A stretch of DNA of 37,211 bases from a virus, in IMG/VR virus record IMGVR_UViG_3300024314_000008, positions 1 through 37,211 of that record; one strand, given 5' to 3'. The notes beneath the pieces were generated by a model. The model was not told the origin of the DNA and searched no databases. It worked only from the letters and a program-made list of their open reading frames with translations. A program made the translations under genes and the position numbers. Positions 10,062 through 32,183 of the stretch are shown piece after piece (the stretch's first letter is position 1; the number at the start of each line of letters is the position of its first letter).

Positions 10062-10420
10062 TGGCAAAGTACGCATCGGGTAAAAACGCATACGCTATTT
10101 CAGACCGCTCTGGTTTCAGATACCCCTACAAGGTAATGAAAAAAGAGTGGAACGGATTGCTTGTGGGTCCAGATGAGTACGAACCAAAGCAGCCACAACT
10201 GGGTCCTTTTAGAACTGTATCTGATCCGCAGGCCTTACAAGGCGCTAGACCAGACTCTCCTAACCCTACCAGTGCTTTTCTTATTGTTACTACAAATGGG
10301 ATTGTTTACTTAGGTAATGGTAACTGGAGTACAGCGGGAACAGCAGAAATGCCTTCGGAACTTGATATAACTGACGCTTTACAAGGTGCCGTGGGCACCG
10401 TATCGGTGGTGACACCATGA
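10061..10420 (+). CDS. Small conserved structural protein with degenerate zinc-ribbon-like motif
   Basis: This 119-aa protein is coupled to the previous gene by TGATG. It starts A-K-Y-A-S-G-K-N-A, then I-S-D-R-S-G-F-R-Y-P-Y (13-23), W-N-G-L-L-V (30-35) and E-P-K-Q-P-Q-L-G-P (41-49). In relatives I recall, this region carries C-x-x-C pairs that form a zinc ribbon. Here the matching positions read S-D-R-S and G-P-D-E, so metal binding is probably lost while the surrounding motif is kept. It lies between two adaptor genes, which suggests a head-tail junction component. The comparison to relatives is from memory. Confidence 0.65.
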   Translation: MAKYASGKNAYAISDRSGFRYPYKVMKKEWNGLLVGPDEYEPKQPQLGPFRTVSDPQALQGARPDSPNPTSAFLIVTTNGIVYLGNGNWSTAGTAEMPSELDITDALQGAVGTVSVVTP

Positions 10421-11067
10421 GTTTTACATACGATCAGTTAAAAACAGCGATACAAGACTACGCAGAGAACGATGAAACGTCTTTTGTAAACAATTTGCCT
10501 GTGTTCATACGTCAGGCGGAGGAAAGAATACTCAAAAACGTGCAGTTGAGCCTGTTTCGCAAGAACGTCAGCGGCAATATGACGCAGGCAAACCAGTATT
10601 TGGCTTGTCCTAGTGACTTTTTAGCCCCGTTTTCGCTTTCTTTTGTAGATGCTAACAGCGACAAGACGTTTTTAGAGTTTAAGGACACTGATTTTGTACA
10701 ATCCTTTAACCCAAACCCCGCAACGACGGGTAATCCGCGGTTTTACGCGGTATTTGACGTTGATAATTTTATTATCGGTCCTACTCCCGATGCAGCAAGG
10801 GCTGTGGAGTTACATTACTTCTATAGACCGGCTAGTTTAACGGCTGGAGCAGGTTCAGGGACCACGTGGCTTAGTGAAAACGCACAAATGGCCATGCTTT
10901 ATGGCAGCTTAATTGAAGCATATATCTATATGAAGGGTGAACAGGATATAATGGCTGCGTATGAAAAAAGATTTACAGAAGCGATGACCGGCATGAAAAT
11001 GTTGGGTGAAAACAAAGAAGTAACCGATGATTATCGCACTGGTATGTTAGTGAGGCCGAAACAATGA
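10417..11067 (+). CDS. Tail adaptor, T7 gp11 (tail tubular A)-like
   Basis: This 216-aa protein overlaps the upstream gene by 4 bp (ATGA). It shows the gp11-like pattern: L-K-T-A-I-Q-D-Y-A-E-N near the start, L-P-V-F-I-R-Q-A-E-E-R-I-L (about 27-39), a central beta region with L-A-C-P-S-D-F-L and I-I-G-P-T-P-D, then a C-terminal helical pair including Y-G-S-L-I-E-A-Y-I-Y-M-K and Y-E-K-R-F-T-E-A-M. Such proteins form the ring that joins the portal or adaptor to the tail nozzle of podoviruses. With the 9393 gene it would complete a two-ring connector. Confidence 0.72.
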   Translation: MSFTYDQLKTAIQDYAENDETSFVNNLPVFIRQAEERILKNVQLSLFRKNVSGNMTQANQYLACPSDFLAPFSLSFVDANSDKTFLEFKDTDFVQSFNPNPATTGNPRFYAVFDVDNFIIGPTPDAARAVELHYFYRPASLTAGAGSGTTWLSENAQMAMLYGSLIEAYIYMKGEQDIMAAYEKRFTEAMTGMKMLGENKEVTDDYRTGMLVRPKQ

Positions 11068-11365: not shown

Positions 11366-11818
11366 ATGGCTTTCAGCGGAAACTTCATGTGTACATCGTT
11401 CAAGAAAGAGCTATTGTACGGTGTCCACGACTTTGATCTCTCTTCGGGAGATGCTTTTAAAATTGCTCTTTACACCAACAGCGCCTCTTTCGATGCTACG
11501 ACTACTGCGTACACTACCAGTAACGAAGTAAGTGGAACAGGTTACACTGCTGGTGGCGGAGCTTTGACTAACGTCGATCCTACTTCATCCGGAACTACGG
11601 CACTAACGGACTTTCAAGACGAAACGTTCTCAAATGCAACAATTACGGCACGTGGGGCATTAATATATAATACTACTCCCAATACTACGTCACTTTCGGT
11701 AACCAACCCGAGTGTTGTAGTTTTGGATTTCGGCGCGGACAAAACATCCACCGCAGGTGATTTTACGATTGTTTTTCCAACTGCTGATGCAAGTAACGCG
11801 ATTATACGGATAGCGTAA
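11366..11818 (+). CDS. Conserved beta-rich virion structural protein
   Basis: This 150-aa protein begins with a conserved-looking block: F-K-K-E-L-L-Y-G-V-H-D-F-D (about 12-24) and F-K-I-A-L-Y-T-N-S-A (about 31-40). It continues with T/S/G-rich strands including N-E-V-S-G-T-G-Y-T-A-G-G-G. I recognise this pattern as a common structural protein in tailed phages of aquatic bacteria. It is coupled to the next, fibre-like gene by TAATG. Role in the virion (tail-associated or decoration) is inferred; no receptor or enzymatic motif is seen. Confidence 0.7.
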   Translation: MAFSGNFMCTSFKKELLYGVHDFDLSSGDAFKIALYTNSASFDATTTAYTTSNEVSGTGYTAGGGALTNVDPTSSGTTALTDFQDETFSNATITARGALIYNTTPNTTSLSVTNPSVVVLDFGADKTSTAGDFTIVFPTADASNAIIRIA

Positions 11819-12711
11819 TGGCTGACGTAATCGTCCCAATAGGCGGCTGGGGCCGTTCAGGTTGGGGCGCAGGCCCGTGGTCCCAGAGTGGGCTACCACA
11901 AGCTGCGGGTTCTGTAGGTTCAGTAACGGTTGTGGCGGAAGCCAACGTTCCGGTTACAGGACTACAAGCAACAGGTAGTGTTGGCAGCGTAACAATAAAC
12001 GCAGCAGCCAACGTGTCTGTAACAGGGGTAGCTGGTACTGGCCAAGTGGGCAGTGTCACTACAACGGCAGATGCCAATGTTAACGTTACAGGCGTAGCGG
12101 GAACAGGGCAAGTCGGTTCGGTCAGCATAACTGCTGGTGCGAACGTACCCGTCACCGGATTGGCCGGAACTGGAGCAGTAGGCTCCGTATCGGTCACCGC
12201 AGATGCAAACGTAAACGTTACGGGTGTGTCGGGAACAGGGGTCGTAGGCTCCGTAAGCGTCGAAGCTGGCGCAATTGTACCCGTCACAGGACTTGAGGCC
12301 ACAGGGTCCGTTGGTTCAGTAACGATTGTTGCAAAAGCCAATGTTTTCCCAACAGGTCTTCAAGCTACTGGTCAGGTAGGCGACGCCACTGTAGATGGCG
12401 AAGCCAATGTACCGGTAACAGGCTTGTCTGCGACAGGCACCACTGGATCAGTTTCAGTAAGAACGGGTCAGACAATTAACGTTGGTGGTGTGAGTGGAAC
12501 AGGTCAAGTCGGAAGTGTCACAGTAGAAAGTGATGCTGTAATAAATGTAATAGGAGTCAGCGCAACAGGTGGTGTCGGAAACGTACTGGTATACTCTAAC
12601 ATTGTCCCGGATCAAAATCCGGGTTATAGTGAGATAGATGTTAACCAGTCGCCGTCATGGTCGGAGGAAGAACCAACCCAGAGCGCAAATTGGACGCAAA
12701 TAGCAGCGTGA
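11818..12711 (+). CDS. Fibre-like protein of ten 22-residue repeats
   Basis: This 297-aa protein has three parts. Residues 1-30 hold a Trp/Gly motif (G-G-W-G-R-S-G-W-G-A-G-P-W). Residues 31-250 are ten consecutive 22-residue repeats of the form G-x-V-G-S-V-x-V-x-A-x-A-N-V-x-V-T-G-[LV]-x-[AG]-T, with a broken eleventh. The C-terminus carries S-P-S-W-S-E-E-E-P-T and S-A-N-W-T-Q-I. Regular repeats of this length and composition would suit a beta-solenoid or elongated fibre. The first repeat's A-A-G-S-V-G-S-V resembles the end of the 19790 product. It directly precedes the main tail fibre gene. The function is inferred to be adhesion or virion decoration. Confidence 0.75.
   Translation: MADVIVPIGGWGRSGWGAGPWSQSGLPQAAGSVGSVTVVAEANVPVTGLQATGSVGSVTINAAANVSVTGVAGTGQVGSVTTTADANVNVTGVAGTGQVGSVSITAGANVPVTGLAGTGAVGSVSVTADANVNVTGVSGTGVVGSVSVEAGAIVPVTGLEATGSVGSVTIVAKANVFPTGLQATGQVGDATVDGEANVPVTGLSATGTTGSVSVRTGQTINVGGVSGTGQVGSVTVESDAVINVIGVSATGGVGNVLVYSNIVPDQNPGYSEIDVNQSPSWSEEEPTQSANWTQIAA
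11908..12567 (+). repeat. Ten 66-bp coding repeats
   Basis: Each 66-bp unit encodes one 22-residue repeat of the fibre-like protein. Units differ at many third positions and at several amino acids, so the array is diverged rather than freshly amplified. The conserved G-S-V and V-T-G cores define the register. Confidence 0.85.
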
Positions 12712-17849: not shown

Positions 17850-19793
17850 ATGCCCTTACAAAAGTTACAGTTCAGGCCCGGAGTAAACAGAGAAACCACT
17901 TCGTATAGTAACGAGGGCGGTTGGTTTGACTGTGACAAAGTAAGGTTCCGTTTCGGCACCCCAGAGAAGATAGGCGGCTGGGAAAAATATTCAGGAAAGA
18001 GCTTTCTAGGCACTTGCCGGGCATTGAAACCATTCGTTGCACTAGATGGCGCAAGCTATTTGGGTGTCGGAACGCATCTAAAATACTACATTAACGAAGG
18101 TGGTGGTTATAACGACATCACTCCTATTCGTGCGACGACTGCTGCGGGTGACGTAACGTTTTCCGCGGTCAACGGCTCATCTACTTTAACAGTAACTGAC
18201 GTAAACCACGGTGCTAAAGAAAACGATTTTGTTACCTTTAGTGGCGCGGTAACACTTGGCGGTAACGTAACAGCCGCCGTTCTTAACCAAGAATATCAAA
18301 TATCTAGGATAGTAAACTCTAGTTCTTACGAAGTTTTGGCCAGAGAAGTTGCTTCACTCAACGACATTACCGTAAACGGTGTTTATAGCCCTACACTTGT
18401 TGTAGCTAATGGTTCCGATACGGGTAATGGTGGTAGTTCTGTTGTAGGCGCTTACCAAATTCAATCCGGTTTGGACACGACTGTCGCCGGAACGGGTTGG
18501 GGCGCAGGTACTTGGTCCCGTGGATCATGGGGTTCAGGCGCTAATCTGACCGCTGTAGGCGACATTTTGCGTATTTGGAGCCACGACAACTTTGGTGAAG
18601 ACCTTATTATCAACGTCCGTAACGGTGGTATTTACTACTGGGACAAATCTACCAGTTCAGCACCTTTTGCACCGGCAGTAGAAATATCTCAACTTGCTGG
18701 CGCAGACCCTACAACACCGACTATCGCAAAACAGGTCATGATTTCGGATCGTGACAGGCACGTTATTGTGTTTGGTTGTGATGCTCAAGACGATATTGGG
18801 GTACAAGACCCCTTACTTATTCGCTTTTCTGACCAAGAAAACCCTTTGGTATGGTCCGCACAAGCAACTAATACGGCTGGTGATCTACGGATCGGTACGG
18901 GCTCTGAGATAATCACGGCCCTCGAAACACGGCAACAAATACTGGTGTTTACCGATAAATCGCTACACGCCATGCAGTATTTGGGACCACCTTTCACGTT
19001 CGGTATCTCTATGATTTCCGAAAACATTACTATCGCTAGTCCTTTGTCCGCTATTGCGGTAGATGACATGGTGATGTGGATGGGTGAAGAAGAGTTCTAT
19101 ATCTACACTGGTCAGGTGCAAAAGCTACCATGCTCTGTCCGCGCCTACGTTTTTAACGATTTTAACCAAGACCAAGCTGAGAAAGTTACCGCAGCCGTAA
19201 ACTCCTCTTTTTCTGAAATATGGTGGTATTACCCGTCTGCTACAGTAACAAACGGGATAATGAACCAAGATATTGATAGATATGTTGTCTACAACTATCA
19301 GGAACAGGTCTGGTACTACGGAACATTGTCTAGAACGGCGTGGATTGACCGCGGTATTGGTCAATACCCTATTGCAGCAAGCTCTGACGGCTACCTTTAC
19401 TACCATGAATTTGGTCAAGATGACGGCAGCGTAAACCCACCAGCCGCTATTAGCTCCTACATTGAGAGTAGTGAAATGTCGATTGGTGCTGGAGACAACT
19501 TCGTGTTGTTGAGCAAGCTAATACCTGACGTGACGTTTGACGGTTCTAGTTCGCCGTCTCCAAACGTAGACTTTACTCTTGAAACCAGACGTTTTCCGGG
19601 CGAAGACTATACACAAACAACAAATAGCAATGTAATTCGTACCTCTACCGTGCCTGTAGAGCAGTTTACCAATCAAGTAAGACTGCGTTTGCGGGGTAGA
19701 TCGTTTGCATTAAAAATAGAATCAGACAATACCGGCGTAGAATGGAGACTAGGTACGCCGCGTGTTGAATTAAGACCGGATGGACGTAGATGA
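17850..19793 (+). CDS. Tail nozzle/stabilisation protein candidate (P22 gp10 / T7 gp12 type)
   Basis: This 647-aa, beta-rich protein starts P-L-Q-K-L-Q-F-R-P-G-V-N-R-E (2-15) with W-F-D-C-D-K-V-R-F-R-F-G (about 26-37), a start I know from marine phages. Repeated aromatic strands such as W-G-A-G-T-W-S-R-G-S-W-G-S-G (about 220), I-W-S-H-D-N-F-G-E-D-L and G-V-G-T-H-L-K-Y-Y-I fit a beta-propeller-like tail protein. It lies downstream of two adaptor candidates and upstream of the ejection proteins. I infer the nozzle or packaged-DNA stabiliser of a short-tailed virion. The same W-G-A-G-x-W-S motif occurs at the N-terminus of the repeat fibre at 11818. Confidence 0.65.
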   Translation: MPLQKLQFRPGVNRETTSYSNEGGWFDCDKVRFRFGTPEKIGGWEKYSGKSFLGTCRALKPFVALDGASYLGVGTHLKYYINEGGGYNDITPIRATTAAGDVTFSAVNGSSTLTVTDVNHGAKENDFVTFSGAVTLGGNVTAAVLNQEYQISRIVNSSSYEVLAREVASLNDITVNGVYSPTLVVANGSDTGNGGSSVVGAYQIQSGLDTTVAGTGWGAGTWSRGSWGSGANLTAVGDILRIWSHDNFGEDLIINVRNGGIYYWDKSTSSAPFAPAVEISQLAGADPTTPTIAKQVMISDRDRHVIVFGCDAQDDIGVQDPLLIRFSDQENPLVWSAQATNTAGDLRIGTGSEIITALETRQQILVFTDKSLHAMQYLGPPFTFGISMISENITIASPLSAIAVDDMVMWMGEEEFYIYTGQVQKLPCSVRAYVFNDFNQDQAEKVTAAVNSSFSEIWWYYPSATVTNGIMNQDIDRYVVYNYQEQVWYYGTLSRTAWIDRGIGQYPIAASSDGYLYYHEFGQDDGSVNPPAAISSYIESSEMSIGAGDNFVLLSKLIPDVTFDGSSSPSPNVDFTLETRRFPGEDYTQTTNSNVIRTSTVPVEQFTNQVRLRLRGRSFALKIESDNTGVEWRLGTPRVELRPDGRR

Positions 19794-20086: not shown

Positions 20087-20316
20087 GTGATGGAACAATA
20101 ATTAATATGCCTGACGGCAGTCAGTGGAAACCTTCCACTAGCACAGACATGGTACATTGTGCTAACTGTACTAATAAGGTCGATACTCCGGAGGAAATAC
20201 TGTCCTATCCGAGTGGAAATTGCCCTGAATGTGGTTCTTCATGGACTGGAGGAGAGAACCGAAGTACAATAATACAGGTAACCATGCCTGAAAGCATTAC
20301 TGGTGGAGCGGGATAA
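20083..20316 (+). CDS. Small zinc-ribbon protein
   Basis: This 77-aa protein overlaps its upstream neighbour by 4 bp (ATGA). It has two intact C-x-x-C pairs: C26-A-N-C29 and C47-P-E-C50, separated by 17 residues, then G-S-S-W. This is the layout of a zinc ribbon, which would be a small structural or binding knuckle. The rest is short and acidic to neutral. Its stop overlaps the start of the LysM protein gene (TAATG). A role in virion assembly or DNA contact is possible but unsupported by anything beyond location. Confidence 0.7.
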   Translation: MSDGTIINMPDGSQWKPSTSTDMVHCANCTNKVDTPEEILSYPSGNCPECGSSWTGGENRSTIIQVTMPESITGGAG

Positions 20317-22151
20317 TGGCAAAAGAAGCATTAATGGTTGAAGAAACCGAAGAATTAGAAGAACTGGAAGTCCCGACCGGTGGTATTGGCGATTTTGTCA
20401 TGGAAGATGACGAACTCGAAGAAGTTTACGGAGATGACTCCGAAACAGATGCTAAAGAAGAGTTTGGTGACAACGGTATAGCACAATTTCCTGCGCTTGC
20501 AGAGCGCATGGCTAAGTATGGTCGAAACGAAGACAACATGCTGGCCCACGTTGCAGAGGGTGAATTAGTCATTCCAGCACAATTCCTCGAAGACGAGGTA
20601 ATGAAGCAACGTATCTACGATATTCTTACAGAAGCCGGGGTTGAAGACCCTGAAGCTTATGTTGTTGGCGCAGAAGCTAACGATCTTAACCCTACTACAG
20701 GCCTACCTGAGTTCTTTTTGAAGAAGTTATTCAAAGGAATTGGTAAAGCTATTAAGAAAGTGGTTAAGGCGGTTGTTAAAGTCGTCAAGAAAGTCGCTCC
20801 TATTATCCTACCTATTGCATTGGCGTTCACGCCTCTCGGACCAATTTATGGTGCCGCGATGGGTTCAGGTATTGGAACACTTCTAAACGGTGGAAGCATC
20901 AAAGATGCCCTCAAGTCTGCACTTATATCGGGTGCGGTAGGTGGTGTTACTGCCGGATTCACCGGATCAGGTTCCTTTACTCAAAACATATCTGATGCTG
21001 CTTCAGGGTTTGGCGCTCGTGTAAGTCAAACAGTTTCTGGTGCAGGCTCTACCTTTACCGGTGGCGGATTTACTGGAGAAGGCAACTTGTTTAGTGATTA
21101 TGTGCCTACACCGGGTGCAGAAGTTGCTTCCGCCGCGGAATCTGCGACGTCACTCACTACGCAACCAATTCAACAAGGCGATACTTTGAGTCAAATTGCG
21201 CAAGCAAATAATACTTCTGTTGACGCTTTGATGGCGGCTAACCCGCAAATTACTGATCCAAACATGATTATTGCAGGCGAAAGCCTCAATATTCCGCCTG
21301 TAAGTGCCGGTGGTACATCACTTTCTGAAAGTGTAGTGAAAAACGTCGGAGAAGATGTAGCCGAAGCAGCGGCAGGAGAAACCGCAGAGCGTAGTTTCTT
21401 AGAGAAAACAGGCGATTACATGTTCCGTGGTGGTCAATCACCCGAGGCTATAGCGAGCGCTAAAGAAATTGCTGGGCAAGAATATATTGCGGACATGGCG
21501 GCTAAAGGTCTTAATGCGTCTGAAGCGGGTCTTAATGCCGCTAAAGCAGCCGCGGGACCCGGTATGCTAACTAGGTTTGGTCCTACCGCACTCGCGGGAA
21601 CAACATTAGCGGCAGGGGCGGGTTTCTTTGATGTTCCAGAGATAGAGCAAGCTAACTTTATAGACTACAATCCTGACGGTACACCTACTACAGGTAGAGA
21701 CCTGATCGACGCTGATCCCGGTAAGTACCTTGTACATAACTTAGGTCAGTTGCAGTTAAATCCAGAAACAGGTGAGTACGAGGCTGTTGGTAATCAAACT
21801 GCTTTTGAAGAAGAAGACTTAGTAGGTTATGCCCCACCTGAACAAGTAGCGGTGTTGCCCCCACAAAACCAACAAAACTACTTAACAGCTAGTACCCCCG
21901 GCGGACCATTTGCACGTCCCTACGTGACAGCCGCAGAGGGTGGACCGATCTTCCCGCGTCGCACAGGCGGCATTGAACCCACTGAAGGTACTCCGGGTGA
22001 AGATAGCGTTCGAGCCATGTTAATGCCCGGTGAGTTTGTAATGACTACCGATGCAGTACGTGGTTTAGGAAACGGAAATCTTAACAACGGAATCCAGAAT
22101 ATGTATTCAGTAATGCGTAATCTTGAGAGCCGTGGGAGGGCTACGGCGTAA
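20316..22151 (+). CDS. Candidate ejection protein: amphipathic cationic helix plus LysM domain
   Basis: This 611-aa protein has an acidic N-terminus, then N-M-L-A-H-V-A-E-G-E-L-V-I-P (about 73-86). A strikingly cationic amphipathic segment (136-160, K-K-L-F-K-G-I-G-K-A then repeated V-V-K units) runs into a hydrophobic stretch (161-171) and glycine-rich sequence. Residues about 284-330 form a LysM peptidoglycan-binding domain (G-D-T-L-S-Q-I-A, then D-A-L-M-A-A-N-P, then G-E-S-L-N-I-P). The C-terminus carries A-E-G-G-P-I and D-S-V-R-A-M-L-M-P-G-E-F-V-M. I infer an internal virion protein that crosses the envelope at DNA entry: LysM for the wall, amphipathic helix for the membrane. Confidence 0.7.
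   Translation: MAKEALMVEETEELEELEVPTGGIGDFVMEDDELEEVYGDDSETDAKEEFGDNGIAQFPALAERMAKYGRNEDNMLAHVAEGELVIPAQFLEDEVMKQRIYDILTEAGVEDPEAYVVGAEANDLNPTTGLPEFFLKKLFKGIGKAIKKVVKAVVKVVKKVAPIILPIALAFTPLGPIYGAAMGSGIGTLLNGGSIKDALKSALISGAVGGVTAGFTGSGSFTQNISDAASGFGARVSQTVSGAGSTFTGGGFTGEGNLFSDYVPTPGAEVASAAESATSLTTQPIQQGDTLSQIAQANNTSVDALMAANPQITDPNMIIAGESLNIPPVSAGGTSLSESVVKNVGEDVAEAAAGETAERSFLEKTGDYMFRGGQSPEAIASAKEIAGQEYIADMAAKGLNASEAGLNAAKAAAGPGMLTRFGPTALAGTTLAAGAGFFDVPEIEQANFIDYNPDGTPTTGRDLIDADPGKYLVHNLGQLQLNPETGEYEAVGNQTAFEEEDLVGYAPPEQVAVLPPQNQQNYLTASTPGGPFARPYVTAAEGGPIFPRRTGGIEPTEGTPGEDSVRAMLMPGEFVMTTDAVRGLGNGNLNNGIQNMYSVMRNLESRGRATA
21168..21305 (+). other. LysM domain coding segment
   Basis: The segment encodes G-D-T-L-S-Q-I-A-Q-A-N-N-T-S-V-D-A-L, then A-N-P-Q-I and I-I-A-G-E-S-L-N-I-P. 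This is a full-length LysM module, the peptidoglycan or chitin binding domain found in bacterial wall hydrolases and some phage virion proteins. Confidence 0.85.
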
Positions 22152-25100
22152 TGGCTGAACAATCCACACAGATAGTCCGCGAAGCACCGGAAATCGAGGC
22201 TTATAAACTAGGCCTCTTACAATCTGCAAAAGCACTTGCTGACCAAGGACAAACTATTCCGCCCTATATGGTTGCGGAAATGTCTGGTCTACAGATCAAG
22301 GCAACTGAATTAGCAGAAGCGGGTATTGGCGGGTATCAACCTTATTTAGCAGAAGCTGGCTTTACGCTAGGCGACGCACAGACCGCCATGGGCGGTGTAA
22401 TGACCGACGCTAAACCGTTCCAAACGGAAGCGTCAGCACTCATGACCGCAGGCGCGGGAAATATTCCCGGACAAGTTGAAGCCGCACAAACAGGTATTGC
22501 GGGCGCTATTACTGCGGGCGGCACAGCAACGACCGCCGCACAAAATGCTTTAGATGCTGCTGCCTTGGGTGGTAGAACTGCTGCCGGTGGTGGTCAGACT
22601 GCTTTAGGTACTGCCGCTGCTAATATTCCCGGCGTAATTTCAGATACCGTTGCAGCTAACACCGCGGCAAATACCGTAGCGGGTCAAGCTGTTGCTGATG
22701 CGCGGTATTCTGGTCGGGAAACAGAACAAAAACGTCGTTTAGGGGCTGTTGACGAAGCGTCTAGGAACTTGGCGGCTACCGTAGGACAAGCGGGTTTAAC
22801 GCAAGCGGGTGCTACACAAACAGGATTAAACGAAGCTGCCGCAGCCGCGCAACAAGCCGCTACTGCGGGTCAAACCGGTCTTAATGCTGCCACTTTAGCC
22901 GGACAACAAACGGCTACCACCGGACAAGCCGGTTTAAGTGCCGCGGCGCGAGAAGCTTTAAACGCTAGGGCGCTTGCCCAACAAAGCGGACAGGATTTAG
23001 GAACGGTAGCGGCTAACGCAAGACAACAAGCTCTTACTGGACAAACCACTTTAGGTTCTGCTGCCGGAACTGCACAAGGACAAGCTCGTGACGCGGGAGC
23101 CGGAGCGCAAGCCTCGGCCCTACAAGCAGGTACAGATTCTGCTGCGGCAATTGCGAACGCACGTCAAGCCGTTACCGGCGCGGGTGCAGGTCTTACTCAG
23201 GCAGGCATTGGTGGTTTACAAGCGGCGCAAGAAGCCGGTACTGCCACAAATGCAGCCATTCAAGCTGCAAGAGCCCAAGCTGCTGGTGGACAACAAGCTC
23301 TTGGCGCAGCCGGATTAGCCGGTGCAGATGCTGCTGCTCAAGCAGGATTAGGTGCAAGACTAGGTGCCGCGGGAACTGCGGCTGGATTAGGCGGAATAAG
23401 TGGACAAGCTAGATCAGACGCACAAGCGGCTGGTGCTGGCGGAATAGGCGCTTATGAAAAAGCTATTGGCGGAATTGACGATGTTGCGACAGCGGCTAGA
23501 AATGTTGCAGGCCAAGCTCGAACTGGCGGACAAACAGCAGCGCAACAAGCTGCTCAACAGACTCAAACCGCAATTTCCGGCGCTAGGGGCATCACATCCG
23601 ATGCTGCACAAGCTTTACAGCAAGCCGGAGCATTAGGAACACAAACAGCACAATCAGGTATTGCTGGTTTAGCGGGTACTACTGGTGCATACGATCCTGC
23701 TTCGGCTGGTTCGTTTATGAATCAGTATGAAGATGCAGCCGTTCAGCAAGCTTTAGCGGATATTCAACGTGCAGGTAATATACAAGCCAATCAAGTTGGC
23801 GCACAAGCAGTTGGAGCGGGTGCCTTTGGCGGATCACGTCAGGCGGTAGCTGAACAAGAATTACAAAGAAACATACTAGAACAGCAAGGTCGTACTGCTG
23901 CGGGTATGCGTCAGCAGGGCTTTGAAAGTGCTTCACAAAGAGCGCAACAAGCCTTTGAATCACAACAAGCTAGGGCTCAACAAGCCGCACAACTTACTGG
24001 CGCACTGGGGGCTCAAGGTTCTCAGGCAGGTATGGCCGCGGCACAAGCTGCGGGTACATTAGGTTTGTCTGCGGAAGAACTTGCAGCACGAACCGCACAA
24101 CAACAAGGTCAATTGGGACTATCTGCCGAGCAATTGGCAGCTACTACCGGTATGTCCGCAGAACAATTGGCGCAACAGGGTTTGACTCAAAGCGGTCAAT
24201 TAGGTCTGTCAGCGTTTGGTCAGCAGGGTCAGTTAGCGCAAGGTGCAAGCCAGTTAGCGTCTTCAAACTTGGCTCAAGCGGGTCAGTTAAGTCAATCTGC
24301 CGAGCAATTAGCCGGTCAGCTTGGTATGTCTTCTGCTCAATTGCAGGGTCAGTTAGCTGGACAAGCTGCTCAAATGGGTATTTCCACAGAACAATTAGCC
24401 GGACAGTTAATTAACCAGCAAGCACAGACAGGTATGTCGGCCAACCAGTTGTTGGCTCAAACTGCACAAAATGCGGGTCAGTTAGGTCTATCCGCAGAAC
24501 AGTTAGCGGCGAACACGGCTCAACAACAAGCTCAAACCGGTATATCTGCGCAACAATTAGCGGGTCAGCTTGGTATTAGCGCATCACAATTAGAAGGCCA
24601 ATTGGCTGGACAAGCCGCGCAGATGGGTATTTCAGCCGAACAGCTTGCGGGTCAGTTGATTAATCAACAGGCTCAGACCGGTATGTCGGCAGAGCAGCTT
24701 GTTTCTCAGTCCGGTATGACTGCGGCACAACAGGGCGCTCAACTCGGAATGCAAGCAGCGCAACTTGGTCAAGCAGGAGCGCAACAAGGCGCTCAAATGG
24801 GCCTAAATGCAGCACAATTAGCACAGTCTAGCGCACAGCAAGGCGGGCAGATGGGTCTAGCGGCTCTAAATCAGGCCGGTCAATTAGGTTTAAATGCAGA
24901 GCAAATGGCGTCAGCCAATGCAAACGCACTGGCTTCAACAGGCATGAACCTACAGTCGCTTGCCGCACAAACAGGCATGAGTGCTGCGCAGTTAGCGGGT
25001 CAATTAGGCCAACAAACAGGCGCGTTAGCCATGCAGGGTGTAAACCAGCAGGCGGACATTGCAAACAGAGCCGCGCAACTTGGTATATCTGCCGAGCAAT

Positions 25101-25618
25101 TGGCCGGTCAGTTGGCCAGTCAATCTGGTCAGTTGGGTCAAGGCCAAGCACAAATGGCTATGCAGGGTTCACAAGCAGGTGGGGCTCTTGGTTTACAAGG
25201 TTCCGAACTACAAGGCCGAATGGGCGAAGGTATCGCGGGTCTTGGAACAAGTTACGGTCAGCTTGCGCTACAACAAGGCGAAGGTTTAAGTCAGCTTGGC
25301 TTACGTCAAGGTGCCTTGGGTGAACTGCAACAAAACTTAGGTCAGAAAGAAGCTGGATTCCTGTTCGATGTTGGCAAACAACAGCAAGCGCAAGATCAAG
25401 CGGTTCTGGAAGCTACTCGTAAGACACAAGTCGAGCAGCAGTATGAGCCTTATCAGCGTGTAGGTTTCTTATCAGACATTTATAAGGGTGCGCCGTCTAG
25501 CCAGATGGCAATCTCACAACAATCAGGTGGTGGCGTATCACCCGCTCAGTCTATATTAGGTTTGGGCGTAGCAGGCTTGTCGGCAGCGGCAGGCGCAGCA
25601 AAAGCGGGGTTATTTTAA
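22151..25618 (+). CDS. Large A/Q/G-rich repeat virion protein (candidate internal/ejection protein)
   Basis: This 1155-aa protein begins with I-V-R-E-A-P-E-I-E-A-Y-K-L-G-L-L (8-23), which I know from marine phages. A long A/G/Q/T repeat region follows. A conserved centre near residues 514-640 contains S-F-M-N-Q-Y-E-D-A-A-V and G-A-F-G-G-S-R-Q-A-V-A-E-Q-E-L. Next come many repeats of about 11 residues (G-[LI]-S-A-E-Q-L-A-x-Q type), expected to form long helices. The C-terminus carries Y-E-P-Y-Q-R-V-G-F-L-S-D-I-Y-K-G. Position next to the LysM protein suggests an internal virion protein. A tape measure role is possible but less likely, as no other long-tail gene is seen. Confidence 0.65.
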   Translation: MAEQSTQIVREAPEIEAYKLGLLQSAKALADQGQTIPPYMVAEMSGLQIKATELAEAGIGGYQPYLAEAGFTLGDAQTAMGGVMTDAKPFQTEASALMTAGAGNIPGQVEAAQTGIAGAITAGGTATTAAQNALDAAALGGRTAAGGGQTALGTAAANIPGVISDTVAANTAANTVAGQAVADARYSGRETEQKRRLGAVDEASRNLAATVGQAGLTQAGATQTGLNEAAAAAQQAATAGQTGLNAATLAGQQTATTGQAGLSAAAREALNARALAQQSGQDLGTVAANARQQALTGQTTLGSAAGTAQGQARDAGAGAQASALQAGTDSAAAIANARQAVTGAGAGLTQAGIGGLQAAQEAGTATNAAIQAARAQAAGGQQALGAAGLAGADAAAQAGLGARLGAAGTAAGLGGISGQARSDAQAAGAGGIGAYEKAIGGIDDVATAARNVAGQARTGGQTAAQQAAQQTQTAISGARGITSDAAQALQQAGALGTQTAQSGIAGLAGTTGAYDPASAGSFMNQYEDAAVQQALADIQRAGNIQANQVGAQAVGAGAFGGSRQAVAEQELQRNILEQQGRTAAGMRQQGFESASQRAQQAFESQQARAQQAAQLTGALGAQGSQAGMAAAQAAGTLGLSAEELAARTAQQQGQLGLSAEQLAATTGMSAEQLAQQGLTQSGQLGLSAFGQQGQLAQGASQLASSNLAQAGQLSQSAEQLAGQLGMSSAQLQGQLAGQAAQMGISTEQLAGQLINQQAQTGMSANQLLAQTAQNAGQLGLSAEQLAANTAQQQAQTGISAQQLAGQLGISASQLEGQLAGQAAQMGISAEQLAGQLINQQAQTGMSAEQLVSQSGMTAAQQGAQLGMQAAQLGQAGAQQGAQMGLNAAQLAQSSAQQGGQMGLAALNQAGQLGLNAEQMASANANALASTGMNLQSLAAQTGMSAAQLAGQLGQQTGALAMQGVNQQADIANRAAQLGISAEQLAGQLASQSGQLGQGQAQMAMQGSQAGGALGLQGSELQGRMGEGIAGLGTSYGQLALQQGEGLSQLGLRQGALGELQQNLGQKEAGFLFDVGKQQQAQDQAVLEATRKTQVEQQYEPYQRVGFLSDIYKGAPSSQMAISQQSGGGVSPAQSILGLGVAGLSAAAGAAKAGLF
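24300..24697 (+). repeat. Duplicated ~50-residue block with diverged codons
   Basis: Blocks at about 24300-24450 and 24548-24697 encode nearly the same protein stretch, including identical L-A-G-Q-L-I-N-Q-Q-A-Q-T-G-M-S-A. The DNA differs at many third positions (for example TTAATTAACCAGCAA versus TTGATTAATCAACAG). The copies are old, and the amino-acid sequence is conserved. Confidence 0.75.
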
Positions 25619-28389
25619 TGAATAGAGAAGTAATGGGCAGACAGATGTTTGCTAAAGGAGGCGCAGCCTTTCCAGACCTAAGTGGTGATGGAAACGTTAC
25701 GCAAAAAGATATTTTGATGGGTCGTGGGGTTATCCCCATGCAGGACGGCGGTATGGCACCTATGCCAATGCCCGCGGCTCCCGGACCACAAATGATGCCT
25801 CCCGGTTTACCTGCCATTGACCCCGGTTCGGTAGATATTAATGAAGCTGCACAAGGTGCTATGCAACAAGGTATCAATCCCGCTGAGTTAGAGGGAATGC
25901 TTACTCAGTATGCCAGTCAAATGGATGACTTAGAAAACGCTGAAGATTACGAAACCGTTATTAACGGGATTCGAGGCGATACAGCACCTATTGAACAGCG
26001 TTATCAAGAATTAGCGCAAGTGGTTGGACCTGAAGATTCGCAAGCCACCCCCGAATCAGTTTTGACTCTGCTTCAGCCTGTAATGCAAATTGCAGCGGTA
26101 GATCAAGGCATTGGAGGTTTAGCTGCCGAAGAGATGTCGGCCCCAGTAGAAGGGGCGATGGCAGAAGGTATTATGTCCACTGTTAACATGGGCGCTCCAG
26201 AAGCTCCTGTACAGGTCCCCGGAGGGCCTGCTCCTGTAAATTTTAACCAAGGCGGCGCGGTCCAGTATATGGCACCGGGCGGTGTCGTCGATCCCGCTCT
26301 TCAGCGCCAGCAAACGTTATTTGACCAGCAAAGAAACCTTTATGGGCAATTACTTGATCCTGCGCAGCAAGAAGCAGATTTGGCCGACCAAAAAGATTTA
26401 ACTCAAGCGCAAATGCTATTTGACGTAGCGCAAGGTGCTTTGATGTTTGCTTCTCCCGGTGAAAGAAATATGAGTCCGGCGGAAAAACTAGCGCAGTCGT
26501 TTGCCCCTGTTTTAGGTAACATAGGCGAAAGAGCGGGTGCGTTTGGTAAGTTTAAACAAGCGCAAAAGGCAGAAGGTCGTCAACTAGATCAAATGGCACT
26601 GCAAAGCGCCAGTCAGCTATACGGTGCAGAACGTGCCTCTCAACTATCCAGAGATGACAAGCCTATCACAGACACGTTCGTAGTCACGATTACAGATGCA
26701 GATGGTAACGAAACAGAAACACAACGCCCGCTAACTTCTGGTCAGTATAATAATCTGGTTACAGAATTTGGTATGGGTAATGTTACCGTTGCAAAAGTAT
26801 TTAAACCGTCCGCAACAAGTAAGGCTCAAAACTTTATTGTAAACGGCGTCTTACGGTCCGCGGTTCCCGGAACTCCGGGCTATGCTTTAATAATGCAACA
26901 AGGCGGAGTAAGTGCGAGCAACGTAGACCCCAGTACATTAATGAAGCGTAAGCAATATACGCTTACTCAAGACTTGACCGTTGGAGACAAGGTTTATCCC
27001 GCAGGTTCCTCTCCCTTCTTTAGCGACATGGAGTTTTCTCAATTAGTTCAAAGTTTTGGTAACGACGTGCTGACAGAATATGTAGCTCCTGTTAACGATA
27101 ATGACTTCTTTAGTAAATTTGGCATGAGCAAAACAGACTTTGAAGCTTTGCCGACAGATAGCCAGCAATACTTACAAGGTTTGCCAATACTTACCGACGA
27201 AGATTACTTCAAGAAATTTGGTTTAGCTAAACAAGACTTCTTGTTGCTTCCTGAAAATGATCGAAAACGTTTAATTGGCATAGAGCCGGAATACCGCTTT
27301 GATAAAGTGGATAACGGAACCACTATCGACATTATCCGTACAGATGTTAACGATCCTGCGGCTAAAGGCGTAAGTATCTTTAGCAGCGAAATTGCAGGTA
27401 CACCTAGTTTATTCCGCGTTACGGTAATGAACGACGAGGGTGTGATGATACCTTCTGTTGCTGACCTATCAACGCCGGAAGGCAAGAAGCTGATGGCTAA
27501 AGTCAACGAAATGAACCAGACAATGCCCGGTTCAGCCGTCATGCAAAAAATTGGTACAGAAAGTAACCAAGTTGCAGCCTTCTTGGTGCCAAACAGTAAA
27601 CCCGGTGGCGGCGCAGCCCTCCGCATGTCCTTTGATGGCGGTAAAACGTACATTGGCGACGACGGAATGCCTAGATTGTTACCCACAGAAGTTATTCCTG
27701 TTGGCGATACCGTTGCTTACGAAGCTTACAAGCGTGAGAAAGTACGTGCCGATGCTAGGAAATTCCTCAGTGCAAATGATACAAATTTGGAAGCAGGGAT
27801 TGGAACAGAACAGTATGCCCCCGGTAAGGGCTTTGAACCGATTACTAAGCAAGACAAGAAGCTGGTTAAAGACGTGTTGGCTGAAGTACGTGCCGGTACG
27901 GGTTTTTGGTCTTCTGTCTTCGCGGGTACGAACGCTGTAGTGGGTGGCGCTATAGCTCCCGAAACGTTCTCTGAATTATTTAAGGAAACGGAGGAAGGGC
28001 GACAGTTTACCAAGCTAGTATACGTTTTAGGACGTTCTGCTTTGGCCTCCTCGCCACGGTTCGCGGTCACCGACCTAGAAGTTACAGGTCAATTATTCCC
28101 GAACCCGGATACCTTCTTTAGTAACCCTGTTACTGAGGCAAACAAGATTGTAAGCTTGATGGAAGCATTAGACTCCGAAGAACTACGTCTACAAAGAATG
28201 AGAGCTTCTGATTCACCACAAGATTCTGCGGTTCTTGCAACGGCTGAACAAAAACTGGGTGAAATTGCTCGACTTAAACAGCTTCTTGGACCTGTTTCTC
28301 AAATGGCGGGGACCGCTTCTGTAACAGACTTGTCCGGAGCGAAGAATTTGTTGAACAAAAAAGGTATGAATTTGAGCGGGAGTAACTGA
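25618..28389 (+). CDS. Large virion protein with dockerin-like motif and 33-residue repeats
   Basis: This 923-aa protein is coupled to its upstream neighbour by TAATG. The N-terminus holds A-K-G-G-A-A-F, then a dockerin/EF-hand-like D-L-S-G-D-G-N-V-T-Q-K-D-I-L (about 21-34), then Q-D-G-G-M-A. A helical part with Q-G-G-A-V and P-G-G-V-V follows near residue 210-225. Residues 493-525 and 526-558 are two 33-residue repeats (D-F-F-S-K-F-G-M-S-K-x-D-F-x-x-L-P and D-Y-F-K-K-F-G-L-A-K-Q-D-F-x-x-L-P). The remainder is soluble alpha/beta with no recognised enzyme. I infer an internal or tail protein of the same module as its neighbours. Confidence 0.62.
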   Translation: MNREVMGRQMFAKGGAAFPDLSGDGNVTQKDILMGRGVIPMQDGGMAPMPMPAAPGPQMMPPGLPAIDPGSVDINEAAQGAMQQGINPAELEGMLTQYASQMDDLENAEDYETVINGIRGDTAPIEQRYQELAQVVGPEDSQATPESVLTLLQPVMQIAAVDQGIGGLAAEEMSAPVEGAMAEGIMSTVNMGAPEAPVQVPGGPAPVNFNQGGAVQYMAPGGVVDPALQRQQTLFDQQRNLYGQLLDPAQQEADLADQKDLTQAQMLFDVAQGALMFASPGERNMSPAEKLAQSFAPVLGNIGERAGAFGKFKQAQKAEGRQLDQMALQSASQLYGAERASQLSRDDKPITDTFVVTITDADGNETETQRPLTSGQYNNLVTEFGMGNVTVAKVFKPSATSKAQNFIVNGVLRSAVPGTPGYALIMQQGGVSASNVDPSTLMKRKQYTLTQDLTVGDKVYPAGSSPFFSDMEFSQLVQSFGNDVLTEYVAPVNDNDFFSKFGMSKTDFEALPTDSQQYLQGLPILTDEDYFKKFGLAKQDFLLLPENDRKRLIGIEPEYRFDKVDNGTTIDIIRTDVNDPAAKGVSIFSSEIAGTPSLFRVTVMNDEGVMIPSVADLSTPEGKKLMAKVNEMNQTMPGSAVMQKIGTESNQVAAFLVPNSKPGGGAALRMSFDGGKTYIGDDGMPRLLPTEVIPVGDTVAYEAYKREKVRADARKFLSANDTNLEAGIGTEQYAPGKGFEPITKQDKKLVKDVLAEVRAGTGFWSSVFAGTNAVVGGAIAPETFSELFKETEEGRQFTKLVYVLGRSALASSPRFAVTDLEVTGQLFPNPDTFFSNPVTEANKIVSLMEALDSEELRLQRMRASDSPQDSAVLATAEQKLGEIARLKQLLGPVSQMAGTASVTDLSGAKNLLNKKGMNLSGSN
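27094..27291 (+). repeat. Two tandem 99-bp coding repeats
   Basis: The units at 27094-27192 and 27193-27291 encode 33-residue modules of the form D-x-D-[FY]-F-x-K-F-G-[ML]-x-K-x-D-F-x-x-L-P. Identity is clear at the protein level, weaker in DNA. Confidence 0.75.
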
Positions 28390-31300
28390 TGGCTGAAGAA
28401 GAAATTGTAATAGCCGAAGAGACTGAAGTAGAGGTAACGCCTCCTGTAAACACAGGTCCTCTGCGCATGAGCTTTACACCGCAAGAGTTCGTTGATTTAT
28501 ACGATACTTTTGAAGAGGAAGCGTCAAAACCAAACTCCGAGTTTCGGTCCGCGGAACAAGGTTTTGCGTTTAGCTTAGTAGAAAGCCTCAAATATGACCC
28601 TTATCTTAGTGATAAGGTCGATTACAATTTGTTGCGCACAGGTGAAGCACCTATTTTGGCAGAACTAGGCCTACAAGGTCAGGCTTTAACCGACAAACAA
28701 ATAATAGAACTATTTGCACAAGACGATCAGGGTCGTGATATTGAAGCGGACCCCGGTTTCTTTCAAGGAGTAAAAAGACGTGCTTTACCCGGTTTGGGTT
28801 TTGCAGGTGGTTTCTATGCTGGCGCACAAGCGGGTAACCTTTCGGTAGCTGGCGTTCCTCCCGTAACACCGTGGACCGCGGCGGTGCGTATAGGTGTTCC
28901 TTTGTTTACCGGAACTGTTGGCGGTATAGCCGCTTCGTTTGCAGGGGACAAAGCAACGGATGCTTTGATGGGCGAAGAGCCTATTGTTTTACCGGGAGCA
29001 AGATACTACGAAGCTGGTAAGACGTTTGCAGATACTTTACCTTTTGTACTAACGCCGTGGGCTGTGCCCGCTAAAGGTTTTAGTCTAGGTGGTCAACAAG
29101 CGTTAAATCAATCTCAAAATTTTATTGGTCCTATTATTAAAGGGCAATCACGCTCACCTCTTTCCGCTAAATTTGTAGGCGGCATTGAAAAAATGAGTGG
29201 CGGAATGGGTCGAGTGGCCCGTGAAAACCCTTATAGAACAGCAGCAGTTGAGGGCGGCGCACTTATTGGCACAACTTTACTTGCAGGAAAAGCAGAAGAT
29301 ATTGCTCCGGGGAACCCGTGGGTACGTTTTGGCTTTGAAACCACCGGTGGTATAAGCGGTGCCTTAGTTGCTGACTTAGGCGCAAACAGAGTTCCTGCTT
29401 TGTTTAAGTGGAGTGGTCGCGGTATAAAAAACTTGTACAAAAGAATAATGAACCCGGACAACGCAGATAGTTTTGGTCTCACGGAAAGTGATAAAGAAAG
29501 CGTTGCTACTTTTATTACGGAACAACTTGAAAAAAACGGTGAAGATCCTTTAGCTATTCTCGAAATGCTTAATGATCCAAAGTTTGACCGGTTTATGATT
29601 GCCGAAGATGGTAGTCAAATTCAGTTAGACCCCGCTACCCGAGCAGCTAGTGTGACATTACTAGGATTACAAAACCAATTTGCTTCGGCTAATCCCGCGG
29701 TAGGTAGCGATGCCACAAGTCGAATGAAATCCTCTATAGACGCTCTGCGTCGTGGATTACTGGCGCTTTATGCTGATGGTTCTCCAGAAGCCTTGCAAGA
29801 TGCCGCTATCATACAAACTTCTTTGTTTGAGGGTGTTTTAGATTCAAAACTAGCCTTGGCTACGGACAACACTATTAAAGCCATGAAGAAGGTTCGTGGT
29901 GACACGCCGGATGCAGACCTTACTTCTGCTCAAAACATTTTTGATACTTTAAAATCTCAATACACCGCAGGTCGAGCGGAAGAATCTAGTTTGTGGAAAA
30001 AAATACCTCAAAACCTAGAGGTTAATCAGTTTATTGATGAAACAGGTACTACTCAAAGCATCCCAAATTTTATAACAAACTACAACGGAAACATGGACGA
30101 GCTTTTACAAGAAGCTAAAGATGTTATTGAAGGTGGTGATTTAAAAATTCTAAAACGCTTTGTAGAACGTAAAACGCAAGAGCTAGGCATAGGTCAAGAC
30201 GCCGCTGACGGAGTAGAGTTTGACACAGGTGTAACAATAGGTGAATTAAACAAAGCGAGAAGTTCTGCTTTAAATATCGCTAAAAAGTTGTACTCCGAAA
30301 GCCGAAACAATGAAGGCCGTATTGCCTCGGAATTTGCCGACGCCTTGTTAGCAGACATGAACAGTATGCCTTTAGGTGAAAACCAAGCATATGACACGGC
30401 TCGAAGTTTTTCAGCAGCGTTTAATGACGTATTTACTCGCGCATATGCCGGAGAAATATTAGGAACTAAAAAGAACGGCGCACCCAGTGTGTCTATAGAC
30501 ACACTTGCTAACAACCTAATGAAGGGTGATGCTGCTTTTATGAAAGCCGCCGCATTGGATGGCGTAGCTCAGTTTCAAGCGGGTCAAGCCTTAACAAACC
30601 TTTTGGAATCAGAAACAGGTGGACAGTTCGCGGCTCAAGGGCAGCGTTTGATGGCCGACCTTCAAGAGCAATATGATCCCGTTACAGGTGTTATAAACCT
30701 TCCCGAAATGCGTAAGTGGTATTCACGCAACCACGAACTTATTCAAACTGTTCCTAATTTAGACGGACGAATTGTTGCGGCAATAAACACTGCAAATGAT
30801 ATTCGTGCGGGCGAAGAAAACTTGCTACGAGTAGTAAGGGCTAACACTCTAAATGAAGACGGCACCTTAAACACCGGGGCGTTATCCACTTGGATGAACA
30901 ACGAAAACAACAAACGTTTGATGGAATTGTTTCCGGCGGTAAGGGACGATCTTAAAGATGTTCGTAAAGCGTCTAATTTAATTACGCAAACCAAAAAACA
31001 AAACGCTTTTGATCTTAAAAACGATGTAGATCAAGTGGGCTTGTCCGAGCTATTGCCGGATAAGACTTCTAACGCCACTACGGCGGTTACTTCCGCCTTA
31101 TCGGCTAACCAGAATAGACCTTTTGCGATTTTAAACAGGTATATGAGGATGGTCGATAATGTTGGCGAAGACGGGTTCACTGTTTTGCCAAATACCGGCG
31201 GTGACAAACGTTTTACCAGTCCAAATGCGGGTAAAACGTGGACGCAAGCCGACCTCCGAAACGGTATGCGTAGTGCTATTTATGACAGCATTTTTCAAGT

Positions 31301-32183
31301 AAGTTCTAACGGAGAGCGTTTTAGCCCCGCTGCCGCTTACAACAAACTGTTTGCTCCACACCCAAAAGTAAAGGAGCTTTCTGTTGCTGATTGGATGTTA
31401 CAAAATGATCTAGTAGGTGCTGACCAGTTAAAAGATACAAAAGAATTTCTTCGTAAAATGGCCGAAATCGAGATGTTTACGATGAAAGCTAAACCGGGCC
31501 AAACCGATGTTCTTTATAAAGACTTAGGTGAAGGACTAAAGCTTGCCGCTGCAATGGGCGGTTCTGCGGTCGGTTCTAGTCTTAGAAACCAAATTGGTCT
31601 GAACAGTGGCGCAGGTGAGATTATATTTGCTGGACGTTTTGCCAAGTTTGGTCAAGACGTAGCTCAACGTTACTTTGCTGAATTACCCCAATCTCTGCAA
31701 GCCAACAGAGTACAGATAATTTTAGAAAACGAAGAACTGCTGAAGCAAGCCCTTAGAAAAGGTAAAACTCAGCGTGAAAAAGACGCTTTGGCTGCTCAGT
31801 TTGCAGAAATGGCTATTCAAAACTACGTCATCATGCCAGTAAGACGATTGGGTGGTGAATCCATACAAGAAACATTCTCTTCAGACCAAAGTCTGGAGGG
31901 CCAAGAAATTCCCCCTGTGGAAGTTCCCACCGGAAGCGGGGCGAATCTGCCTACTACGAATAACAATGCTGCACCGGTTGTGCCGGTACAAAAATCAGCA
32001 CCCGTTGTTCCTAGTGGGCCACCTATTCAGCAACCTGAACCAGAAAATTTTAATCCAAACCCTAGTAGGTTTGACCAAAGTTCGGTTGCACCCAGCGGTC
32101 CTGTGGACCGGACTAAGTTTGCAGCTTTATTCCCAGAAGACCGAGAACTTCTCGGCATCGGTAGTTTAATGGGGCAAGTGTAA
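28389..32183 (+). CDS. Very large candidate ejection (internal virion) protein
   Basis: This 1264-aa protein is coupled by TGATG to the previous gene. Residues 1-30 are acidic. Small-residue hydrophobic stretches occur at about 130-150, 165-185 and 280-300 (for example G-F-A-G-G-F-Y-A-G-A-Q-A-G), which could insert into a membrane. The long middle is helical and charged. A proline-rich linker follows, and the end reads D-R-T-K-F-A-A-L-F-P-E-D-R-E-L-L-G-I-G-S-L-M-G. Size, position last among the large virion genes and these stretches fit a T7 gp16-type ejection protein. No transglycosylase motif was recognised, so the wall-cutting activity of gp16 cannot be claimed. Confidence 0.6.
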   Translation: MAEEEIVIAEETEVEVTPPVNTGPLRMSFTPQEFVDLYDTFEEEASKPNSEFRSAEQGFAFSLVESLKYDPYLSDKVDYNLLRTGEAPILAELGLQGQALTDKQIIELFAQDDQGRDIEADPGFFQGVKRRALPGLGFAGGFYAGAQAGNLSVAGVPPVTPWTAAVRIGVPLFTGTVGGIAASFAGDKATDALMGEEPIVLPGARYYEAGKTFADTLPFVLTPWAVPAKGFSLGGQQALNQSQNFIGPIIKGQSRSPLSAKFVGGIEKMSGGMGRVARENPYRTAAVEGGALIGTTLLAGKAEDIAPGNPWVRFGFETTGGISGALVADLGANRVPALFKWSGRGIKNLYKRIMNPDNADSFGLTESDKESVATFITEQLEKNGEDPLAILEMLNDPKFDRFMIAEDGSQIQLDPATRAASVTLLGLQNQFASANPAVGSDATSRMKSSIDALRRGLLALYADGSPEALQDAAIIQTSLFEGVLDSKLALATDNTIKAMKKVRGDTPDADLTSAQNIFDTLKSQYTAGRAEESSLWKKIPQNLEVNQFIDETGTTQSIPNFITNYNGNMDELLQEAKDVIEGGDLKILKRFVERKTQELGIGQDAADGVEFDTGVTIGELNKARSSALNIAKKLYSESRNNEGRIASEFADALLADMNSMPLGENQAYDTARSFSAAFNDVFTRAYAGEILGTKKNGAPSVSIDTLANNLMKGDAAFMKAAALDGVAQFQAGQALTNLLESETGGQFAAQGQRLMADLQEQYDPVTGVINLPEMRKWYSRNHELIQTVPNLDGRIVAAINTANDIRAGEENLLRVVRANTLNEDGTLNTGALSTWMNNENNKRLMELFPAVRDDLKDVRKASNLITQTKKQNAFDLKNDVDQVGLSELLPDKTSNATTAVTSALSANQNRPFAILNRYMRMVDNVGEDGFTVLPNTGGDKRFTSPNAGKTWTQADLRNGMRSAIYDSIFQVSSNGERFSPAAAYNKLFAPHPKVKELSVADWMLQNDLVGADQLKDTKEFLRKMAEIEMFTMKAKPGQTDVLYKDLGEGLKLAAAMGGSAVGSSLRNQIGLNSGAGEIIFAGRFAKFGQDVAQRYFAELPQSLQANRVQIILENEELLKQALRKGKTQREKDALAAQFAEMAIQNYVIMPVRRLGGESIQETFSSDQSLEGQEIPPVEVPTGSGANLPTTNNNAAPVVPVQKSAPVVPSGPPIQQPEPENFNPNPSRFDQSSVAPSGPVDRTKFAALFPEDRELLGIGSLMGQV

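Follow-up and report, generated by a model that had tools for sequence, protein, structure and literature searches.

Why should a phage protein keep its repeat units nearly unchanged while the codons that specify them drift apart? The question is raised by the window analyzed here, a 37,211-base virus record (IMGVR_UViG_3300024314_000008), in which an open reading frame (ORF; 22151-25618, plus strand) encodes a 1155-residue protein with 276 Ala, 194 Gln and 177 Gly residues. Two long Ala/Gly/Gln-rich arms flank a conserved GAFGGSR motif at residue 557. The original prediction drew attention to protein-identical, DNA-diverged repeats in this protein, and the description is borne out by two blocks of the second arm, A (aa 716-769) and B (aa 799-852). 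The blocks are identical at 45 of 54 residues but share only 73% nucleotide identity, and the proportions of synonymous and nonsynonymous differences (pS and pN, NG86 method) are 0.767 and 0.116. Over the 50-residue span first singled out, 43 of 50 residues are identical (pS 0.81, pN 0.09). Synonymous sites are saturated, and the synonymous divergence (dS) between the blocks is therefore not estimable. The long exact run that had been described is present, though at 18 rather than 16 residues. The longest exact self-match did not exceed 8 residues in 40 residue shuffles, or 10 and 15 in 40 order-1 and 40 order-2 Markov copies; self-matches of at least 18 residues appeared in 12 of 40 order-3 Markov copies, which regenerate the repeat words.

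The lengths of the two arms track one another residue for residue. Relatives of the protein are encoded at 53 IMG/VR loci, and these, the window and phage DSL-LC04 made up a first set of 55 proteins. We defined arm 1 as the stretch from a YQPYL anchor to GAFG and arm 2 as the stretch from GAFG to an SDIY anchor. Lengths were taken from 37 complete homologs, the remainder being 6 fragments and 12 proteins without anchors (L003, which has a broken ORF, L037, L039-L042, L044, L045, L048 and L052-L054). Arm 1 ranged from 68 to 592 residues in the 37 homologs, and arm 2 was longer by 53.8 ± 2.0 residues (r 0.9999, slope 1.009). A difference of 54 ± 3 was taken as the prediction for a second sample and was written down alongside that scan. 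The second viral scan covered the best 80 of at least 535 relatives; 35 of the 80 lay on first-set contigs, and the 45 loci on other contigs supplied 42 complete proteins. The difference fell within 3 residues of 54 in 31 of these and within 10 residues in 39 (21 and 26, respectively, of the 29 that are non-redundant). Removal of 24 near-duplicates from the 79 complete proteins left 55, which gave r 0.998, a slope of 0.999 ± 0.008 and a median difference of 54, with a median absolute deviation of 1 residue compared to 128 when arm 2 was shuffled. The difference was 50-58 in 45 of the 55 and within 10 of 54 in 52. Independent contrasts on a midpoint-rooted tree gave r 0.998 and a slope of 1.003. 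Wherever arm 1 changed by at least 5 residues, arm 2 changed with the same sign (47 of 47 contrasts), and the two changes agreed within 4 residues in 35 cases.

Measured family members run from 294 to 1346 residues. DSL-LC04, the sole named phage record matched by the window protein, encodes a counterpart of 294 residues, and gp81 of pelagiphage HTVC023P, shorter still at 278 residues, is 42% identical to the DSL-LC04 protein over 278 aligned columns. Thus, a compact form exists and the window protein is a much enlarged form. The G, A, F, G and R residues of GAFGGSR are invariant across the 27 rows of alignment A1, and all 42 of the new members anchored by hidden Markov model (HMM) carry GAFG. 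A search of genome contigs found two relatives, both within metagenome-assembled genomes. In a distant relative, gp33 of Roseobacter phage CRP-901 (L137:18392-19777), quite different repeats flank the same GAFGGSR motif, and its arms look as if they had expanded independently.

Changes in arm length are also placed symmetrically. Alignments of sister proteins revealed equal insertions or deletions (indels) on either side of GAFGGSR, with lengths of 36/36, 130/130, 29/29 and 18/18 residues. Ignoring pairwise indels of fewer than 5 residues, we examined 24 disjoint sister pairs, of which 12 had equal non-zero indel counts in each arm, 3 had none and 9 had unequal counts. The 12 pairs contained 16 indel pairs, and every one of the 16 was equal within 2 residues. 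The distances of the paired indels from GAFGG were closely correlated (r 0.987), with a median mismatch of 5.5 residues; placing them at random gave 73, and setting the arms in parallel gave 73.5. L088 and L104 differ by indels of 29, 18, 119 and 18 residues, counted outward from the motif, and this order is repeated in both arms. These mirror-placed changes indicate that the arms face one another in antiparallel orientation about residue 559. The commonest length steps are 18 and 36 residues, and indel lengths follow a 3.6-residue phase (R 0.51, n=89, with both members of paired indels counted).

Block B is itself one half of a paired module. In a close alignment of 10 proteins, it is missing or cut in 5, with the paired stretch reduced to 0 of 58 residues in two and to 22 of 58 in three. 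The same 5 proteins entirely lack arm-1 residues 269-325, and the other 5 have both halves. The predicted mirror of residues 269-325 is 793-849, and the observed arm-2 gap spans 801-858. We also considered an arm-1 duplication at lag 83 that would mirror blocks A and B. Its 17 of 54 identical residues rank among the highest 1% of pairs, but at least as many are reached at 31 of 276 lags and the duplication is not claimed.

Both arms have helical character, as had been predicted. Across 47 proteins, Ala, Gln and hydrophobic residues recur every 3.60-3.62 residues in both arms, with Gln and Ala on opposite faces. The arm-2 periodicity follows partly from the unit lengths, but the far less repetitive arm 1 shows it too. 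With a slope of 1.00 between arm lengths, each residue should add as much length to one arm as to the other, and this favors two continuous helices. The repeats had been called undecad-like, and a lag of 11 residues is indeed present; it is weaker than the lags of 29 and 18 residues, which are the strongest in the protein, so it is just part of the pattern. Of the two shapes suggested originally, a long coiled rod or an ejected tube, our data favor a long rod, and an ejected tube is possible. A sequence search of solved structures gave a best E of 0.078 for the family profile and no row for two compact relatives. Foldseek with the low-confidence window model returned none of 295 rows at E <0.001, and chemoreceptor chains were among the weak rows (best E 0.02), which served only to point toward that comparison.

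Profile matches and gene order link the family to DNA ejection. The phrog_4287 family, 'DNA ejection protein', matches the window protein at E 1.9e-4 in the C-terminal part only. It also matches the DSL-LC04 protein (aa 10-288, E 6.9e-9), HTVC023P gp81 (aa 36-268, E 2e-10), a UFV-P2 protein (aa 26-297, E 2e-16), LUZ24 gp53 (aa 122-292, E 2e-10; its record is noted as 'phage particle protein') and CRP-901 gp33 (E 1.4e-4), and it is matched at E 0.01 by 15 of the 27 aligned members. In compact relatives the match to the phrog_4287 family (with LUZ24 gp53/phrog_7477) covers from roughly half to most of the protein, and they share with it a similar neighborhood and the G-x-[FY]-G-[GS]-x-R motif; the window protein, probably a distant relation of the family, differs in its 1155 residues and its two expanded arms. 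The gene order in DSL-LC04, which resembles that of the window, is stabilization protein, two hypotheticals, 'tail tape measure protein', the 294-residue protein, a hypothetical and 'DNA transfer protein'. The two hypotheticals have 474 and 110 residues in DSL-LC04 and 98 and 77 in the window. By tblastn, the 647-residue upstream protein of the window matches 126 phage records, many of them from LUZ24-type Pseudomonas phages, and its UFV-P2 match falls in a gene whose record notes similarity to LUZ24 YP_001671929. We take this protein to be of the P22 gp10 kind, based on the 'stabilization protein' annotation. An ejection function for the window protein is likely on sequence grounds.

We consider it probable, though by no means certain, that the protein forms a long helical hairpin with antiparallel arms, that it grows and shrinks by paired pieces, and that it acts as an ejection protein, carried in the head and leaving it with the DNA. 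The N and C termini would lie together at one end, with GAFGGSR forming the turn at the opposite end. Between these ends the two helical arms would pack together, residue i facing approximately residue 1118 - i, and we infer that this pairing occurs within one chain. A change in one arm would persist in the long term chiefly if the opposite position in the other arm gained or lost a piece of the same size. The repeat units would keep their protein sequence while their codons saturate because the arms must stay paired. A two-helix rod is about 2 nm wide. The protein may leave the head with the DNA through the portal channel, and such a rod could be thin enough for a channel of 35-52 Å, the width given for phage DEV in the available text of PMC10925440. 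A wider reading, on which we are evenly divided, is that this phage ejection family is a length-adjustable strut whose arms change in lockstep, and that the repeats, alike in protein and diverged in DNA, are the product of selection on arm pairing rather than on individual units. The arms of the strut would span about 100 to more than 600 residues each (~15-95 nm if straight), so that its reach would vary with both ends and the tip fixed.

Several observations speak against the hairpin or its role in ejection. Three members (L112, L087 and L089) have clearly unmatched arms, with differences of 20, 17 and 41 residues that fall 34, 37 and 13 short of 54; they are possibly one-sided intermediates of paired changes. 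Smaller deviations occur in five members with differences of 59-63, in DSL-LC04 (49) and in L012 (46), and the CRP-901 arms also match worse, at 181 and 205 residues from hand-set anchors. L048 is without GAFG. The count of 16 equal indel pairs rests on 12 of 24 sister pairs and leaves out the 9 with unequal counts, in which the net changes of the two arms were 180/181, 65/65, 224/224, 302/300, 86/93, 56/65, 330/318, 60/94 and 0/36. Neither Gly alone nor Leu alone shows a 3.6-residue peak in arm 1, and the face signals are modest. The AlphaFold2 models of L036 and the window protein are all-helical but of low confidence (pLDDT 54 and 59; pTM 0.25 and 0.30), and the window model splits much of arm 2 into helices of ~8-15 residues and runs one continuous helix through GAFG (aa 516-637). 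When profiles were compared directly, the match to the LUZ24/UFV-P2 pair was weak (A2 against A6; probability 37%, E 4e-4, around GAFGG). Finally, an α-helix rises 1.5 Å per residue, and ~540 residues per arm would extend for ~80 nm if straight, which is probably longer than the head interior for such a genome. A rod of that length would have to bend, fold or sit elsewhere.

Mirror symmetry and arms matched one to one would equally be expected of an antiparallel homodimer, in which each chain is one near-continuous helix with a two-fold axis at GAFGG and residue i faces residue 1118 - i of its partner. The helix that crosses GAFGG in the window model would suit this arrangement. However, the L036 model breaks exactly at GAFG, and a homodimer would be about twice as long as the hairpin. 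We favor the hairpin because GAFGGSR is glycine-rich and is conserved even in compact relatives, as expected of a tight turn, and we regard the homodimer as doubtful.

A different role for the same fold is equally unlikely in our judgment. The hairpin could serve as a surface fiber, whisker or tail-associated rod, which is compatible with the structure and would accommodate a rod too long for the head. It would also fit the finding that arm length does not vary with the length of the upstream gene (rho -0.06, n=53, mechanical ORF lengths). Ejection is favored instead by the match to phrog_4287, the hydrophobic C-terminal tail and a place in the operon that follows a tail protein of the LUZ24 type and precedes the positional counterpart of a 'DNA transfer protein'. 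Arm length also gave rho 0.38 with the length of the downstream gene (n=46, P 0.01), but several of those ORFs are truncated or wrong (61-106 residues) and the correlation was not used.

Between the window and L005, nonsynonymous divergence (dN) in the repeat region is 0.027 and dS is 0.376, a ratio of ~0.07, and dS in the rest of the gene is 0.22-0.35. The repeat-region ratio is ~0.05-0.10 against L005, L007, L024 and L012, which indicates purifying selection on the protein; the value near 1 that the original prediction had named as counting against it was not observed. The duplication is old, as supposed. L013 retains the diagnostic residues of block A and of block B separately, and its same-block dN to the window (0.10-0.11) is lower than its cross-block dN (0.22); between A and B, dN is 0.13 within the window and 0.24 within L013. 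Unconstrained low-complexity expansion, with units that come and go by slippage or recombination, are tolerated and resemble one another through composition alone, would be in keeping with the Q/A/G composition and with close relatives that differ by whole units. It is very improbable given a dN/dS of ~0.07 and the matching of the arms, and mirror-paired equal indels are unexpected from slippage because the two halves are hundreds of codons apart and differ in sequence.

The codons themselves show no sign of having been driven apart. Codons are identical at 20 of 43 conserved A/B residues, compared to 16.7 ± 3.1 expected from random draws on the gene's own usage, and z-scores for codon identity across 15 lags range from -1.6 to +1.8. 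Residues 621-1010 contain 28 shared 12-mers against a mean of 16 in 500 synonymous reshufflings (P 0.07 for as many). In the same number of reshufflings, residues 61-510 gave means of 2.3 shared 12-mers and 0.2 shared 15-mers, where 4 and 0 were observed. Codon identity is thus at the level of random choice and nothing indicates selection against DNA identity; time and purifying selection are enough to account for the codon divergence. We therefore give almost no credence to selection on each unit that favors codon divergence to block recombination, for although synonymous saturation with a conserved protein speaks for it, codon identity is not below random, exact DNA repeats are not depleted and close relatives differ by the gain or loss of whole units. 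The original interpretation is partly supported. The protein is under purifying selection, but a description in terms of selection on the repeat alone is too narrow, because the less repetitive arm 1 follows the same length rule and whatever one arm gains or loses is matched in the other.

A known parallel is offered by chemoreceptors, whose indels were reportedly found by Alexander and Zhulin in 2007 to be symmetric and paired about the tip. The principle of a hairpin built from length-matched paired units would be alike in the two cases. The chemoreceptor (MCP) coiled coil consists of paired heptads in classes of 12 to 32, spanning 126-336 Å in the available text of PMC6628036. The chemoreceptor step is 7 residues, whereas the window family is viral, has steps of 18, 36, 29 and 11 residues, and has arms of up to ~640 residues. 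A Pfam scan of the window protein up to E 0.1 contained no MCP signaling domain and no ABC ATPase head, its sole row being HTH_26 (E 0.018, below the cut-off). In SMC and Rad50 proteins the termini lie together, with a hinge in mid-chain between two antiparallel arms. Their periodicity is 3.5 residues, compared to 3.6 in the window family, and natural SMC arm lengths are described as constrained in the part of PMC5344682 available to us.

By position, the window gene resembles those for T7 gp14 and P22 gp7 in being the first of three large genes after the tail genes. P22 gp7 matches phrog_598 only, and its hhalign comparison with the compact relatives (A5) gave a probability of 0.1%. In the accessible portion of PMC8954989, gp14-like proteins are given as 181-240 residues long with size variation below 30%, and this ejection protein is reported there as the most size-constant. 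The window family covers 278 to 1346 residues and does not share that small size; if the positional correspondence holds, the spread is surprising. Our searches of the open-access literature turned up no phage ejection protein described as a hairpin or as changing length in pairs, and the terms hairpin and coiled-coil do not occur in the available portions of PMC8954989 and PMC11440229. Paired-module hairpins are already known in chemoreceptors. Here, sequence comparison alone bears on topology where AlphaFold2 gave no confident fold, and it supplies a testable residue register (i + j ~1118). It also describes a phage protein with fixed ends whose length varies more than four-fold through paired indels that compensate for one another. 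This variation raises the questions of what purpose the reach serves and how two indels so far apart come to be fixed jointly.

Table 1. Positions of the gene, its parts and its neighbors in the window.
Feature	Coordinates	Strand	Basis
Whole gene, 1155 aa	22151..25618	+	ORF; relatives at 53 loci among viral contigs
N-terminal end, conserved, aa 1-60, IVREAPEIEAYKLGLL; open end of the proposed hairpin	22151..22330	+	alignment A1, anchors
Arm 1, aa 61-520, Ala/Gly/Gln/Thr-rich, variable length	22331..23710	+	
Arm-1 partner of block B, aa 269-325	22955..23125	+	full in 5/10, missing in 5/10 aligned proteins
Tip region, conserved, aa 522-600	23714..23950	+	alignment; HMM block T
GAFGG, aa 557-561; center of mirror symmetry, proposed turn	23819..23833	+	anchors, indels; GAFG in compact relatives too
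Arm 2, aa 601-1070; Gln/Ala/Gly/Leu repeats, lags 18, 29 and 11 residues	23951..25360	+	
Block A, aa 716-769	24296..24457	+	
Block B, aa 799-852	24545..24706	+	
Arm-2 half of the paired indel containing block B, aa 801-858	24551..24724	+	window vs L024
C-terminal end, conserved (FLSDIYKGAPSSQ), then hydrophobic Gly/Ala-rich tail to aa 1155	25361..25615	+	alignment, anchors
Upstream tail protein, 647 aa, phrog_3287; like LUZ24-type phage particle proteins	17850..19793	+	
LysM protein, 611 aa, adjoining upstream	20316..22151	+	
923-aa protein, adjoining downstream; candidate further ejection protein by position	25618..28389	+	gene order vs DSL-LC04
1264-aa protein, positional counterpart of DSL-LC04 'DNA transfer protein'	28389..32183	+	gene order

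Other features of the window were recorded in passing. The 923-residue neighbor (25618-28389) matches the Pfam villin headpiece (VHP) above the cut-off at residues 494-518 (E 3.9e-8), in a region with two similar units. Further upstream, 9393-10061 and 10417-11067 both match Pfam SU10_adaptor, as if an adaptor gene had been duplicated, and a 27-nucleotide tandem repeat of 2.7 copies (9313-9385) lies directly before the first of them. Beside the tail fiber gene, 11818-12711 encodes a 297-residue protein of ~26-residue repeats (VGSV..ANV.VTG.ATG) that is probably β-structured. A proline-rich protein (PPPVQVPPP) encoded at 37-1842 carries one DGDGRIT motif resembling a calcium loop, together with a weak dockerin row below the cut-off.

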